The notes below the pieces were generated by a model. That model searched no databases, was not told the DNA's origin, and saw only the letters and a program-made list of their open reading frames with translations. DNA of 64,000 bases from Haliscomenobacter hydrossis DSM 1100 (GTDB lineage Bacteria; Bacteroidota; Bacteroidia; Chitinophagales; Saprospiraceae), in NCBI RefSeq assembly GCF_000212735.1, contig NC_015510.1, forward strand, positions 3,560,315-3,624,314. Reading direction: 5' to 3'. This document shows, piece after piece, positions 15,905 through 62,531 of the stretch. Within the stretch, counting starts at the first letter, position 1; each line of letters begins with the position of its first letter. Both the position numbers and the translations under genes were made by a program.

Positions 15905-15997
15905 GGGTTCGGGGGTTCGAAGTTCGAGGGTTCAAGCGGTCGCCGAGCGTAGTCGAGGTGCCCGCTTGAACCCCCGAACTCCCGAACCCCCGAACCC
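15905..15997. repeat. Inverted tandem-word element (GTTCGAGG type) with a second repeat in the loop
   Basis: Arm one (15905-15939) is four to five copies of GGGTTCGA-like words; arm two (15963-15997) is the reverse complement (CCCCCGAACTCCCGAAC...). The loop carries GCCGAGCGTAGTCGAGGTGCC, close to an interspersed repeat I know from many bacterial genomes (GAGCGtAGTCGAagTG type). It starts directly after the RSH stop and ends just before the Fur-family gene. Confidence 0.85.
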
Positions 15998-16014
15998 ACA
16001 AAACCTGTTAAAAA

Positions 16015-16500
16015 ATGTCAGACAACAAACTCGAGGATACCATCCGTGAGGTAAAAAGTATTTTTTCAGCGCACCTGGAACAACATGCGCTGCGAAAAAC
16101 CCCAGAACGTTACGCCATTTTGGAAGAGATTTATAAGCGAAGCGACCACTTTGATGCTGAAGCGCTATATATCCACATGAAAAATCAGAACTATCGGGTG
16201 AGCCGCGCCACAGTGTACAATACCCTGGAGTTGTTGGTGATTTGTGATTTGGTGAAAAAACACCAGTTTGGGAAAAACCTGGCCCAGTACGAAAAATCTT
16301 ATGGCTTCAAGCAACACGACCACCTGATTTGTGTGGATTGTGGCAAGGTGCTCGAATTTTGTGACCCGCGCATCCAAAACATCAAAAACATGATGGGCGA
16401 TTTGCTCAAATTCAAAGTGCTGCACCATTCGCTTAATTTATATGGGCATTGTGAAGGCAGTTGTGAGGAGAAGTTGAAGAGTTCAGCGTTGAAAAGTTGA
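16015..16500 (+). CDS. Fur-family metal- or peroxide-responsive repressor
   Basis: 161 residues. N-terminal winged helix ([14 protein letters not shown]; the recognition helix region [12 protein letters not shown] is the Fur signature) and a dimerisation domain with [15 protein letters not shown], which contains the His cluster and the CxxC structural zinc site. A second, looser Cys pair is CEGSC near the end. Which of Fur, PerR or Zur it is cannot be settled from sequence alone. The last ten residues (KLKSSALKS) and the stop codon are read from the GTTGA-type repeat that begins at 16471, so its C-terminus is repeat-derived. Confidence 0.9.
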
Positions 16501-16634
16501 AGAGAAGTCTAAAAGTTGGGAAGTTGATAAGACCATTTTACAATGGCTCTTGCGCCATGTAAAAGCTCAAAAGAGGATTTCCAATATGGCACTACCCACA
16601 ACTTTTCAACTTTTCAACTACAAACTTTTCAACT
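16471..16634. repeat. Inverted tandem-word element (GTTGAAAA type)
   Basis: Arm one (16471-16527) has repeated AAGTTGA words; arm two (16599-16634) has CAACTTTTCAACTTTTCAAC. The arms are imperfect and separated by about 70 bases. Arm one overlaps the 3' end of the Fur-family gene and provides its TGA. Confidence 0.8.
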
Positions 16635-16703
16635 ATTCTCCCTACATTGTGCCGTTAAATTTATTCAGCACAAAATGGCTCTTCAGCCTAAGTACTAACC
16701 ATT

Positions 16704-16741
16704 GAGAACCTAACCGACCATCACTTGGTCAGTTAGGTTCT
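16704..16741 (+). promoter_or_regulatory. Leader hairpin upstream of purA
   Basis: Arms AGAACCTAACCGACC and GGTCAGTTAGGTTCT pair over 15 positions with one mismatch around a 7-8 base loop, ending 19 bases before the purA ATG, followed by TATAATTTAT. It could terminate or attenuate transcription from upstream, or control purA; nothing resembling a known purine riboswitch core was seen. Confidence 0.6.
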
Positions 16742-16760
16742 TATAATTTATACACACCTT

Positions 16761-60198: not shown

Positions 60199-60205
60199 CT
60201 ATAGC

Positions 60206-60499
60206 ATGGAGGGGCAAGAGGAAACGAAGAACATCACGGTTGTAGTTGCCGGACGTCCATACCCATTGAAAATCAGGGTTGAAGACGAAGCCTCCCTTCG
60301 CAAAATAGTCAAAGATGTCAACGAAAAGATCAATCGTTTTCAACTGACATACACGCAAAAAGACAAGCAGGATTGTTTGTCTATGGCGCTTTTGACCTAC
60401 GCTGTTGATCTGCACAAAACCCAACTTGCCGCCGCTCAGGACGCCCATCTCTCGGCAAAACTCTCCCATTTGGAAGCACTCTTGGATCAGGAAGCTTAA
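60206..60499 (+). CDS. zapA: Cell division protein ZapA
   Basis: 97 residues from the ATG at 60206. The fold begins with NITVVVAGRPYPLKI and continues with EDEASLRKIVKDVNEKI, the ZapA head signature; the C-terminal helix includes KDKQDCLSMALLTYAVDL. It binds FtsZ and stabilises the ring. Co-transcribed with the preceding coiled-coil gene. Confidence 0.88.
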   Translation: MEGQEETKNITVVVAGRPYPLKIRVEDEASLRKIVKDVNEKINRFQLTYTQKDKQDCLSMALLTYAVDLHKTQLAAAQDAHLSAKLSHLEALLDQEA

Positions 60500-60503
60500 A
60501 CCA

Positions 60504-60600
60504 GGTTTTAGGGTTCGAAGGTTTTAGGGTTCGAAGGTTCGAGGGTTGCCCTCCAACTCACGAACCCCCGAACTCACGAACCCTGAAAACCCCGAACCCT
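60504..60600. repeat. Inverted tandem-word element (GGTTCGAGG type)
   Basis: Arm one (about 60504-60546, AGGGTTCGAAGG words) and arm two (about 60551-60600, CACGAACCCCCGAACT words) around a short loop. Words are shared with 15905-15997 and 24451-24529. It lies between zapA and rny. Confidence 0.85.
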
Positions 60601-60629
60601 ATATTTTTTACATCGGAAAAAACGACTTT

Positions 60630-62312
60630 ATGGAAATTGGAATAGGAGCAATAATCGGTTTAGCAATCGGAGTAATAGCGGGATATTTTTTGGTGCAGTT
60701 TTTCTTGAATAAATCGAAGCAACAGAAACTAGAAGAACTCAATTCCCAAGCCGACCTGCAAATCAAAGAAGCCCGCCTATCGGCAAAACGTATTGTAGAC
60801 GAAGCCGAAACCAAGGCAGAAAAAATTGTCAACCAGGCGGAAAGCAAAAATGAACGCATCAAACAAAATAAGATTCAGGAAGCCAAAGACCACTTTGCCA
60901 AACTGAAATCGGATTTTGATAGCCGCAAGACGCAGCAACTGGTGGAAATGAAAGAGCGCGAGATGGAAATCAAAGCGCTCGAATCAGAATTCAAATCCAA
61001 GGAAGAAAAGATCGATGAACGCCACCGCGTGCTCGAACAACAAAGGGCTGAGTTTGAACTCAAGGATGCCGAAACCATGGCCATCCGCGAAAACCTGGAA
61101 AAGCAATTAAAAATTGTTGCCAAAAAACGGGAAGAGCTGGATCAAGCCAATGAAATTCGCATCAAGGAACTGGAGATCATCTCGCGCTTGAGCGAGCAAG
61201 AAGCCAAGGAACAGCTTTTGGATGCTGTGCGCGCCAAAGCGCAAAACGATGCGATGTCGATCGTAAAAGAATCCATCGAACAGGCCAAAATGGATGCCAA
61301 CAAGGAGGCGAAAAAAATCGTCATCCAGACCATCCAACGCATGTGTGCCGAATACACCATCGAAAACACCGTTTCGGTATTCCACCTGGAATCTGACGAC
61401 ATGAAAGGCCAGATCATCGGTCGGGAAGGGCGCAACATCCGGGCATTGGAAGCGGCTACTGGCGCAGAAATTGTGGTAGACGATACCCCGGAAGCCATCG
61501 TGATTTCGAGCTTTGACCCGATCCGCCGCGAGGTGGCTCGTCTGGCCCTGAAAAAACTGGTCGCCGATGGCCGGATCCACCCTGCCCGCATCGAGGAAGT
61601 GGTGGCCAAAACCCGCAAACAACTGGACGAACAGATTGTAGAGATTGGCGAAAAAACCGTCATCGACCTCGATTTGCACGGTCTCGATCCGTACCTCGTG
61701 AAAATGGTGGGCCGGATGCGTTTCCGCTCTTCCTACGGGCAGAACCTGATCAAACACTCCATCGAAACCGCGAATCTTTGTGCCATCATGGCGGCTGAAT
61801 TGGGCCTCAAACCCCAACAGATCAAACTGGCCAAACGAGCGGGTCTACTCCACGACATTGGTAAAGTAGCTGAAGAAGAATCAGAATTGAGCCACGCCAT
61901 CCTGGGGATGCAGTTGTGCGAAAAATACAAGGAAAACCCGGCGGTAGTCAATGCCGTTGGTGCCCACCACGACGAAATCGAGATGAACAACATCATCTCA
62001 CCGATCGTACAGGCTTGTGACGCGATCTCGGGCGCACGCCCAGGCGCACGTCGCGAAATCCTGGAAAGTTACCTCAAGCGCATCGGTGAGCTCGAAGACC
62101 TGGCCATGACCCACGAAGGCGTAACCAAAGCTTTCGCCATGCAGGCTGGCCGCGAGTTGCGGGTGATTGTGGAAAGTGAAAAAGTAACCGACCAATATGC
62201 CGACGATCTGGCGTTCATGATTTCCCAAAAGATTCAGGACGAAATGCAGTATCCTGGTCAGATTAAAGTGACGGTGATTCGGGAGAAGCGGGCAGTGGCA
62301 TTTGCACGGTAA
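60630..62312 (+). CDS. rny: Ribonuclease Y
   Basis: 560 residues from the ATG at 60630. The frame extends back to a TTG at 60546, but those 28 residues are repeat-encoded and precede the N-terminal membrane segment ([18 protein letters not shown]). A long coiled coil (about 25-205), a KH domain ([19 protein letters not shown] text at about 263-278) and an HD domain (GLLHDIGKV, then AHHDE) follow. RNase Y is a membrane-bound endonuclease starting mRNA decay. Confidence 0.95.
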
Positions 62313-62531
62313 AACTAAAAGCGAAAAACTAAAAGCGAAAAGCAAGAAATAAGAATTCGCTTTTAGTTTTTCACCACTCTACTGGATATTTTGCTCAAAG
62401 GATATAAAAAGCCCGATCTACGAGCTAAAGCATGTGGCAATTCATGTTCTCCGCTTGCAGCATACAAAAATGTTCAGTAGAATGTTTTTTCACTTTTCGC
62501 TTTTCACTTTTCGCTTTTAGTTTTTCGCTTT
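62312..62531. repeat. Nested element with AAAGCGAAAA words
   Basis: ACTAAAAGCGAAAA words at 62312-62345, a short complement at 62357-62372, and a long complementary arm at 62486-62531. Inside, TCTACTGGATATTTTG pairs imperfectly with CAAAAATGTTCAGTAGA. It follows the rny stop and precedes the ompA-type terminator. Confidence 0.8.

Follow-up and report, generated by a model that had tools for sequence, protein, structure and literature searches.

Words of 7-10 letters, repeated in tandem and then again as their reverse complement, build a large family of hairpins between the genes of this genome, and these word hairpins are probably MITE-like S23p elements that lack the gene. S23p, the 23S rRNA-intervening-sequence protein, is a four helix bundle (PF05635, TIGR02436), and arms of the same kind flank S23p genes far more often than control genes, both here and on plasmids of other phyla. 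In its full form the element would have an arm on each side of a single gene of about 115-125 codons, the arms being inverted to each other and mostly built of about four tandem words; in the form common in this genome, the same arms would enclose only a tip, the gene having been lost. The gene-less forms would derive from the full ones, with S23p recognising the words and acting in trans on the gene-less copies. The hairpins would spread as small mobile elements and would persist mostly within a few bases 3' of a stop codon. A first-pass annotation had read such loci as one layout filled with unrelated words by some generating process, and this overall reading is supported in part; its remark that no named family covers them does not hold, the arms being those of S23p or intervening-sequence elements.

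Tandem-word hairpins in the window

A scan that combined self-alignment to the reverse complement with arm periodicity (lag score cut 8) called ten tandem-word hairpins in the stretch analysed here (the window, 64,000 bases). Nine of the ten loci of the first-pass annotation are indeed tandem-word hairpins; the tenth, a long palindrome at 44451-44607, stays below the cut (lag score 7), its arms not consisting of word runs, and the locus placed at 39009 resolves into two adjacent hairpins. GTTCG words build the hairpins at 15905-15997, directly 3' of a TAA stop and with the tip CGGTCGCCGAGCG..AGTCGAGGTG, and at 60504-60602, while GTTGAA words build those at 16467-16641 (arms 16467-16504 and 16602-16641), where the first arm covers the last 34 bp of an ORF at 16015-16500, and at 59745-59874, which has dispersed copies in the genome at 75-79% identity. 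The GTTGAG-word hairpin at 36240-36362 carries the tip GCTACCGCGAGCGAC, the CGGAT-word hairpin at 25646-25751 has 45-bp arms that are perfectly complementary, and the hairpin at 18041-18114 is made of CACNAAGR, a word that builds such hairpins in about 15 phyla. Within the gap 38960-39364, a CTTAGG-word hairpin (39025-39082) adjoins a layered palindrome (39083-39329) with outer arms CTGTCAATTACCCACAAAT and inner word arms ACACGACG at 39143-39175 and 39236-39267. An AAAGCG-word hairpin at 62311-62531 has arms at 62318-62342 and 62507-62531 and an inner pair at 62323-62339 and 62356-62372.

The four one-arm runs reported earlier (5453, 24361, 24451 and 52651) are present as well, as a single GTTGAA run (5453-5490), a short GTTGAA run (24361-24397), a right-type GTTCG run (24460-24530) at the 5' end of the ORF 24448-25599, and a single right-type GTTGAA run (52650-52683) just upstream of an ORF starting at 52688; no partner arm was found for the first and third. 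The description of the words as unrelated holds only in part: GTTCG, GTTGAG, GTTGAA, GTTGAT and the GTTCC of a congener have in common GTT and a purine-rich tail. Folded as DNA, six of the window hairpins gave z-scores of -6.1 to -18.2. Rfam returned only two tRNAs and no rRNA for the window, where the hairpins lie between protein genes and not inside 23S rRNA.

Genome-wide excess and internal constraint

Across a genome sample of 1,664,000 bases (19% of the genome), 229 word hairpins were called, as against none in one dinucleotide-shuffled copy, which held 32 inverted repeats; a stricter periodicity cut gave 141 against none, the looser set taking in a few marginal palindromes such as copies of the 44451 family. 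An excess over shuffled DNA, the check proposed with the first-pass annotation, is present in this sample, and one common build with many words occurs far above chance. By extrapolation (229 per 1.664 Mb), the chromosome would carry about 1,150 gene-less copies.

A dozen or so different words occur within this one genome. In the six main word classes the arms come in one order only (136 versus 0 arm pairs), and in those GTT classes that were counted the GTT-type arm invariably precedes the other. An integron attC reading was rejected on this order, which is opposite to that of attC sites, where RYYYAAC comes first and GTTRRRY last. The mode is four words per arm in the GTTCG, GTTGAG, GTTGAT and CGGAT classes, and word number and spacers vary among hairpins. 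Word cores agree between the two arms, whereas spacers do not. Gene conversion, suggested earlier as a check, was assessed by comparing spacer agreement between arms of one element with that between elements: the agreement within an element is higher in the GTTCG class (18 of 43, against a shuffled mean of 0.18 and maximum of 0.41), weakly so in GTTGAG (10 of 26, against a mean of 0.20 and maximum of 0.42) and not in GTTGAA (2 of 10) or GTTGAT (1 of 13). Selection on RNA pairing was rejected, G-U mismatches being in no excess over A-C (88 versus 98 in 48 elements, p 0.51).

The first-pass annotation preferred a generating process to descent from one ancestral repeat, yet descent does play a part inside a word class: leaving aside 30 unassigned elements, for 163 of the 199 compared another element can be aligned across 75% or more of both, and identity between related elements of one word class has class medians of 71-86%. 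Few copies are nearly identical (4 of 199 reach at least 95%), which weighs against the S23p-element reading. The hairpin centres carry various tips. One of these, CGAGCG..AGTCGA, lies outside called word hairpins in 4 of 15 places, and its reading as a free repeat was rejected since, by eye, each of the four is still within some palindrome.

S23p genes between word arms

In this genome, a GTTGAT array pair encloses a 117-aa protein that matches 23S_rRNA_IVP (E 2.4e-33) and TIGR02436 (E 1.1e-30), its matches to Avd being weak and below cut-off. A tblastn search of the 1.664 Mb gave three S23p genes, each of them between inverted word arms, of GTTGAT, GTTGAA and GTTGAG words (flank scores 51.5, 32 and 24.5). 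Four unpaired GTTGA left runs have a right run 329-538 bp away; one such interval, reached from two of these runs, holds a called gene, and a second (C 227705) encloses an S23p gene, so the assumption that word arms never enclose a gene was rejected. No S23p gene occurs in the window. With about one S23p gene per 75 hairpins here (3 versus 229), the ratio counts against the S23p-element reading, and none was seen with GTTCG, CGGAT or CACNAAGR arms, or with arms of the rarer words, in the 1.664 Mb and the other loci searched; these classes, too, would be S23p elements on the proposed scheme.

A test set beforehand covered 23 plasmid records of other phyla with an S23p match, which reduce to 21 distinct genes. 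A tandem word run lies beside every one of the 21, and inverted flanks are significant in 15 (at most 2 of 200 shuffles), 14 of these being tandem, with words such as GGGAACA, GGGAAAA, TCAGGAG, AGGTGAC and GACGGAT. Among control genes, which were taken from this genome and not from plasmids, inverted word flanks occur at 14 of 1197 other genes and at 2 of 212 genes of at most 480 bp, and a tandem run adjoins 262 of 1197. The six plasmid genes without significant inversion speak against the S23p-element reading; some of them are partial, and in one case the word runs show no inversion. In the plasmid records the S23p genes are annotated as ordinary genes and the arms are unannotated.

Further, S23p genes are also contained in 3 of 30 loci of other Bacteroidota that were chosen only for a GTT word run. 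On the other side stand four S23p-like matches in other loci: inverted arms flank one (L109), a second has words on a single flank (L108), a third runs off the end of its stretch and has words to its left (L105), and the last, a longer frame, has no words (L199). A search of 50,697 phage records with one query gave no S23p match.

Genomic position and turnover

Just behind a stop codon sit 98 of the 141 stricter-cut hairpins, and hairpins are also found in divergent gaps (9 of 52). The CACAAAG hairpins of other phyla show a weaker stop-codon adjacency (8 of 35 within 10 bp, on crude gene calls). Among congeners about 67-91% identical, word hairpins are gained and lost, and the empty loci that had been proposed as a check are found in sister species; no target duplication was seen at the sites compared. 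The 15905 GTTCG hairpin is absent from G001 and G002, and another hairpin stands at the same stop codon in G004; the 60504 GTTCG hairpin is absent from all three. In G001 and G002 a GTTGAG hairpin occupies the gap of the 18041 CACNAAGR hairpin, the site of the 59745 GTTGAA hairpin holds a GTTGAG hairpin in G002 and none in G001 and G004, and the gap of the 36240 GTTGAG hairpin is 7 bp in G002 and G004. Both of these genomes carry a CTTAGG hairpin in the gap that corresponds to 38960-39364. Gaps are re-used by a hairpin of a different word in 6 of 14 cases (p 0.016), and word usage differs by species, as if in dialects.

Alternative explanations

It is unlikely that word hairpins arise independently, with S23p genes merely settling in them or making use of them as safe locations. 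The hairpins do far outnumber the S23p genes (229 versus 3) and have various tips in their centres; however, word runs adjoin 21 of 21 plasmid and 3 of 3 own S23p genes, with words that differ by lineage, and an rRNA intervening sequence of the same plan is described in PMC4990558. Local formation, through slippage of the polymerase and fold-back copying, would suit the variable word number and spacers, the rarity of identical copies and the re-use of gaps by other words, yet it is highly improbable given the agreement of cores but not spacers between arms and the association with S23p genes; the slippage plus inversion suggested in the first-pass annotation predicts neither the fixed arm order (136 versus 0) nor the recurrence of one word hairpin across about 15 phyla. 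Quite improbable, too, are host functional sites that selection would maintain at gene ends, whether as protein-binding arrays or as uptake-like words: core constraint, stop-codon position and species dialects would fit, while the fast turnover, the dozen words in a single genome and the lack of a G-U excess (88 versus 98) do not. Uptake words as such, considered only as an analogy, were rejected.

That the hairpins are REP-like elements moved by Y1 transposases, the single-strand transposase route raised earlier, is not favoured and has very little probability. Y1_Tnp is present in 13 of 13 genomes tested, but it is widespread anyway (210 of 296 Bacteroidota), and GTT-positive genomes are not significantly enriched for it (23 of 27, p 0.12). 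By eye, word arrays lie near none of seven own Y1 genes, where three palindromes marginally pass the numeric cut, and near 3 of 40 foreign ones (40 of 67 matches, from nine other genomes). Ordinary intrinsic terminators, which the location behind stop codons would suggest, can practically be dismissed: a T-rich tail accompanies 38 of 255 elements versus 62 of 398 random intergenic positions, a test of limited power because even among other repeats of terminator size just 35 of 155 have one, and the elements occur in divergent gaps too. Annotators should be cautious not to read such hairpins as terminators.

Relation to known elements

Among the closest known systems is the 23S rRNA intervening sequence, which in PMC4990558 has an inverted stem around an S23p gene and tandem heptamers just before the ORF, and whose mobility is suspected in the discussion of that paper. 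Such sequences interrupt 23S rRNA, from which RNase III excises them, whereas the hairpins here lie between protein genes, are mostly gene-less and reach very high copy. Intergenic genes annotated as 'four helix bundle protein' or 'S23 ribosomal protein' (PF05635, TIGR02436) have the same arms.

The GGGAATC (Xanthomonas) and GGGGAYT (Nostoc) repeats resemble the hairpins here in being degenerate tandem 7-mers, occurring in inverted pairs (70 and 75 GGGAATC cases in two Xanthomonas species), lying close to stop codons and preferring four units (PMC4692102). They differ in having one G-rich word, read as a G-quadruplex, in the few inverted pairs of Nostoc, and in their stable positions (PMC4692102). 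In Xanthomonas 83% of the GGGAATC repeats keep their place, which again counts against the S23p-element reading. Here, G-runs fit for quadruplexes are contained in GTTCGGGG words and absent from GTTGAA, CACNAAGR, CGGAT and AAAGCG words. TAACTGA repeats (Beggiatoaceae, Cyanobacteria, Bacteroidetes) are likewise intergenic heptamer arrays common to distant phyla, but are direct repeats, with one inverted case in 170 sets (PMC4679880). Six word strings, sought as sequence in the literature, occur in none of 5.39 million papers.

MITEs and foldback elements such as Galileo (PMC4168063) are gene-less inverted-arm relatives of a gene-bearing element, and their arms may contain tandem repeats. Inverted arms, no gene and a related gene-bearing element are likewise found here; the differences are that no target duplication was seen against the congeners and that S23p has no known transposase chemistry. 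REP/REPIN sequences with RAYT (see PMC3733652 and PMC3116915) are also small dispersed intergenic palindromes, but have no tandem words and are moved by Y1 proteins; at the seven own Y1 loci, no Y1 gene was found by eye beside the same palindrome.

The S23p-element reading would join the tandem-heptamer repeats of several phyla and the intergenic palindromes common to phyla in one anatomy, which would extend to the 23S rRNA intervening sequences and to orphan 'four helix bundle' genes. The S23p family is little-studied and best known from rRNA inserts, and its gene-carrying forms in very distant bacteria have word-built arms. With one anatomy and a candidate protein that has a solved relative (2gsc, XCC0516 of Xanthomonas), the origin and mobility of intervening sequences would become directly testable.

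More tentatively, and with considerable doubt, S23p elements might be a pan-bacterial class of mobile elements moving through RNA, in which S23p would pass the transcript to a reverse transcriptase supplied in trans. A ring-shaped S23p would hold the transcript, once folded, by its tandem words, with roughly one word to each subunit, and the gene-less hairpins would be parasites of S23p elements. Each S23p lineage would read its own word, from which the species dialects and the common four words per arm would follow. This RNA-based view draws on S23p being a pentamer in Xanthomonas and a distant relative of Avd, the partner protein of the reverse transcriptase in diversity-generating retroelements.

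Abundance and architecture of the word hairpins

The genome of Haliscomenobacter hydrossis DSM 1100 (8.77 Mb, four contigs) was sampled over 1,664,000 bases, comprising the window, one 100 kb block and three 500 kb blocks, using repeat finders and a purpose-written detector of inverted repeats with periodic arms. This yielded 491 inverted repeats, of which 229 are built of tandem words by our cut; a stricter cut retains 141. In a copy shuffled by dinucleotides there were 32 inverted repeats, none of them word-built, against the 229 of the real sequence, and the excess over shuffled DNA that the first-pass annotation asked to be checked is borne out. 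Nine of the ten loci listed there are indeed tandem-word hairpins, and the one at 44451 is not. Named by word core, the classes are GTTCG (52), GTTGAG (26), GTTGAA (22), CGGAT (20), ACAGAT/GCAGAT (16), CACAAAG (13), ACGAC (12), AAAGCG and kin (10), CGGAGT (10), GTTGAT (8) and rarer words (10), with 30 unassigned.

A 21-base GTT-word pattern matches the studied genome 476 times forward and 482 times in reverse, and is present in 27 of 296 Bacteroidota, all of which except the studied genome have at most 8 matches. The backward-pattern control (60 and 47 matches in the studied genome) is an imperfect measure of chance, as much of the reversed pattern is also fitted by GTTGA words; in the congeners G002, G003 and G004 the pattern gives 218, 264 and 62 matches on both strands together and the control 218, 267 and 62. 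Window 41993, inside the ORF 41849-44122, holds one more single-arm GTTGA run (three or more cores) that the earlier list did not include.

In six classes of the studied genome, all 136 arm pairs have the word-first order (a single hairpin can contribute more than one pair), and the same order is seen in the congeners for GTTGAG (10), GTTGAA (6), GTTCC (3) and CACAAAG (3), with none reversed, while CTTAGG stands at 1 to 1. Reversed exceptions in the class listing are one TCAGC hairpin and, by eye, two of ACATGAC type. Four words per arm are found in 44/104 GTTCG, 37/52 GTTGAG, 34/40 CGGAT and 7/16 GTTGAT arms, and in 8/44 GTTGAA arms, in which two is the commonest number; the hairpin tips are partly common to different words. 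Arm-to-arm mismatches affect 1-6% of core positions vs 17-43% of spacer positions in five classes (22, 12, 8, 7 and 4 hairpins), a contrast to which the counting itself contributes, because a core had to be intact in at least one arm to be scored. Among CACAAAG hairpins from other genomes (81 compared), arm-to-arm agreement at the variable positions is 60, 56 and 44% (composition expectation about 53, 36 and 36%), whereas the following AAG core is retained at 86-93%; the two arms are therefore only loosely copies of one another.

Genomic position and turnover

With gene positions taken from our own simple gene caller, the hairpin starts within 10 bp of the upstream stop codon in 98 of the 141 single hairpins in co-directional gaps (74 of 95 by the strict cut), as compared to 14/44 for other long palindromes and 16/74 for short ones; the next start codon is within 10 bp in 24 of the 141. 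Over the first 464 kb, hairpins occupy 47/216 co-directional, 15/51 convergent and 9/52 divergent gaps.

Alignments to four congeners covered portions of the window and of two further blocks. As the first-pass annotation had suggested checking, sites can be empty in sister species: the hairpin at 36240 is missing from both congeners compared, that at 60504 from all three, and that at 15905 from two; behind the stop codon of this last site, G004 has an unrelated hairpin. Site 59745 holds GTTGAA in the studied genome, GTTGAG in G002 and nothing in G001 and G004, and two sites have GTTCG in the studied genome and GTTCC in G004. Of 96 gaps, 39 were comparable. Among the 14 that carry a word hairpin in the studied genome, 9 have no hairpin in at least one relative, 6 have another word in at least one and 3 share the word; these counts overlap, and one row was corrected manually. 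Where the studied genome lacks a word hairpin (25 gaps), a relative has one in 2 (p 0.016). The alignments showed no target duplication. Separately, a GGGGCAAAAATAARTGTTCATTTT hairpin without tandem words occurs in G004 (L051 10137-10263 and L071 2089-2206), in gaps with a word hairpin in the studied genome or G002.

How could such hairpins arise? The first-pass annotation proposed copying, slippage plus inversion, or a single-strand (Y1-type) transposase. That Y1 transposases move the word hairpins now appears unlikely, as the search it called for found word arrays at none of the seven Y1_Tnp loci of the studied genome; three palindromes at two of these pass the numeric cut marginally. Of the 67 Y1 matches in another nine genomes, the surroundings of 40 were inspected: 5 pass the cut, not counting a run of N, and in 3 words are visible by eye. 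The genome's own Y1_Tnp loci have palindromes of their own near five of the seven (CGGCGGATT, CCCACGACT, GACCTCGGAG and ACCCCGAAGGGGT types), and the frame of the seventh, L007, is interrupted by an internal stop. A Litorilinea MAG has a Y1_Tnp gene with a TATTGCG-word hairpin (L327 1709-1885) about 115 bp away.

S23p genes between word arms

The interior of the few widely spaced arm pairs was inspected for genes. Between two paired GTTGAT arrays lies a gene of 117 aa (L010:13928-14281), the product of which matches the 23S rRNA-intervening-sequence protein S23p (23S_rRNA_IVP, 2.4e-33; four-helix-bundle TIGR02436, 1.1e-30) and, weakly and below threshold, Avd-type proteins. A search of 3.42 Mb (the studied genome sample and other loci) found three S23p genes in the studied genome, all three inside inverted word arms, of GTTGAT, GTTGAA and GTTGAG. 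Among stretches selected only for GTT word runs, the S23p match of L109 has inverted arms, that of L108 a word run on one side, and that of L105, truncated at the stretch end, GTTGAA words to its left. Another hit, a longer frame in L199, is without arms.

All 23 plasmid records with an S23p match (cyanobacteria, Azospirillum, Gemmatirosa; 21 distinct genes) served as an independent test set. Inverted flanks are present in 15 of the 21 (reached in at most 2 of 200 shuffles), 14 of the 15 being tandem, and a tandem run lies beside all 21; the corresponding counts among 1197 control genes, all from the studied genome, are 14 with inverted word flanks and 262 with an adjacent tandem run. No S23p match was found in phage records. 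Two word-armed plasmid genes lie amid CRISPR-associated genes (L364 and L377; cas10/cmr3 in Picosynechococcus, cas6/cas4 in Anabaena). Around a Pseudanabaena gene (L362), long runs of AAAGCTA on the left and AAAAGCC on the right are not inverted relative to each other and may be a different arm layout.

Most simply, the word hairpins can be read as S23p elements lacking the gene, standing to the gene-bearing form as MITEs do to insertion sequences; this is shown for three classes and would extend to the others. The S23p results raised our confidence in a mobile-element reading from evenly balanced to good, at the expense of its rivals. S23p would bind the words, and movement might proceed by DNA or via RNA and reverse transcriptase, the RNA-mediated version being speculative. 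In one published case, the S23p ORF of a 23S rRNA intervening sequence is preceded by tandem heptamers, two or three depending on strain (PMC4990558). The sole solved relative found here, 2gsc (XCC0516), is from Xanthomonas (PMC4990558), the genus in which GGGAATC word hairpins have been described (PMC4692102). A limited search of the open-licence literature found no paper linking intergenic word hairpins with S23p.

Distribution across bacteria and viral contigs

A scan of species genomes found CACAAAGRCAC hairpins in at least 119 stretches. Among the matches listed (80 titles), about 15 phyla are represented by our reading, including isolates and many MAGs, and 52 of the 80 loci pass the periodicity cut. 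A stricter CACAAAG pattern was found in 20 of 25 whole genomes, 22 of them picked because of a match, and its backward control in none; the highest numbers, where one hairpin can hold several matches, are 152 (a Chloroflexi MAG), 89 (Desulfococcaceae) and 77 (an Acidobacteria MAG). The CACAAAG loci (574 kb) contain 42 further periodic hairpins, some of them plain GC-rich palindromes and many with words identical or close to those of the studied genome. In viral contigs, the DNA of which may be virus or host, CACAAAGRCAC hairpins occur in 21 stretches (L297-L317); two scrambled words gave 1 and 2.

Other repeats

A perfect 12-base unit (AAAAGTTCGGTG, 5.3 copies) lies at window 32831-32894, near the 3' end of the ORF 31739-33070. 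The long palindrome at window 44451-44607, which lacks tandem words, and its look-alikes at A 17027, A 255823, A 257566, B 401475 and B 493616 (letters denote other blocks of the genome) are a separate dispersed family. Palindromes of layered build, each some 240 bp long (CTGTCGATTACCCACAAATCC), occur at three distant sites (D 26475, A 280782 and C 171276), and their similar arm starts suggest that they are perhaps recent copies.
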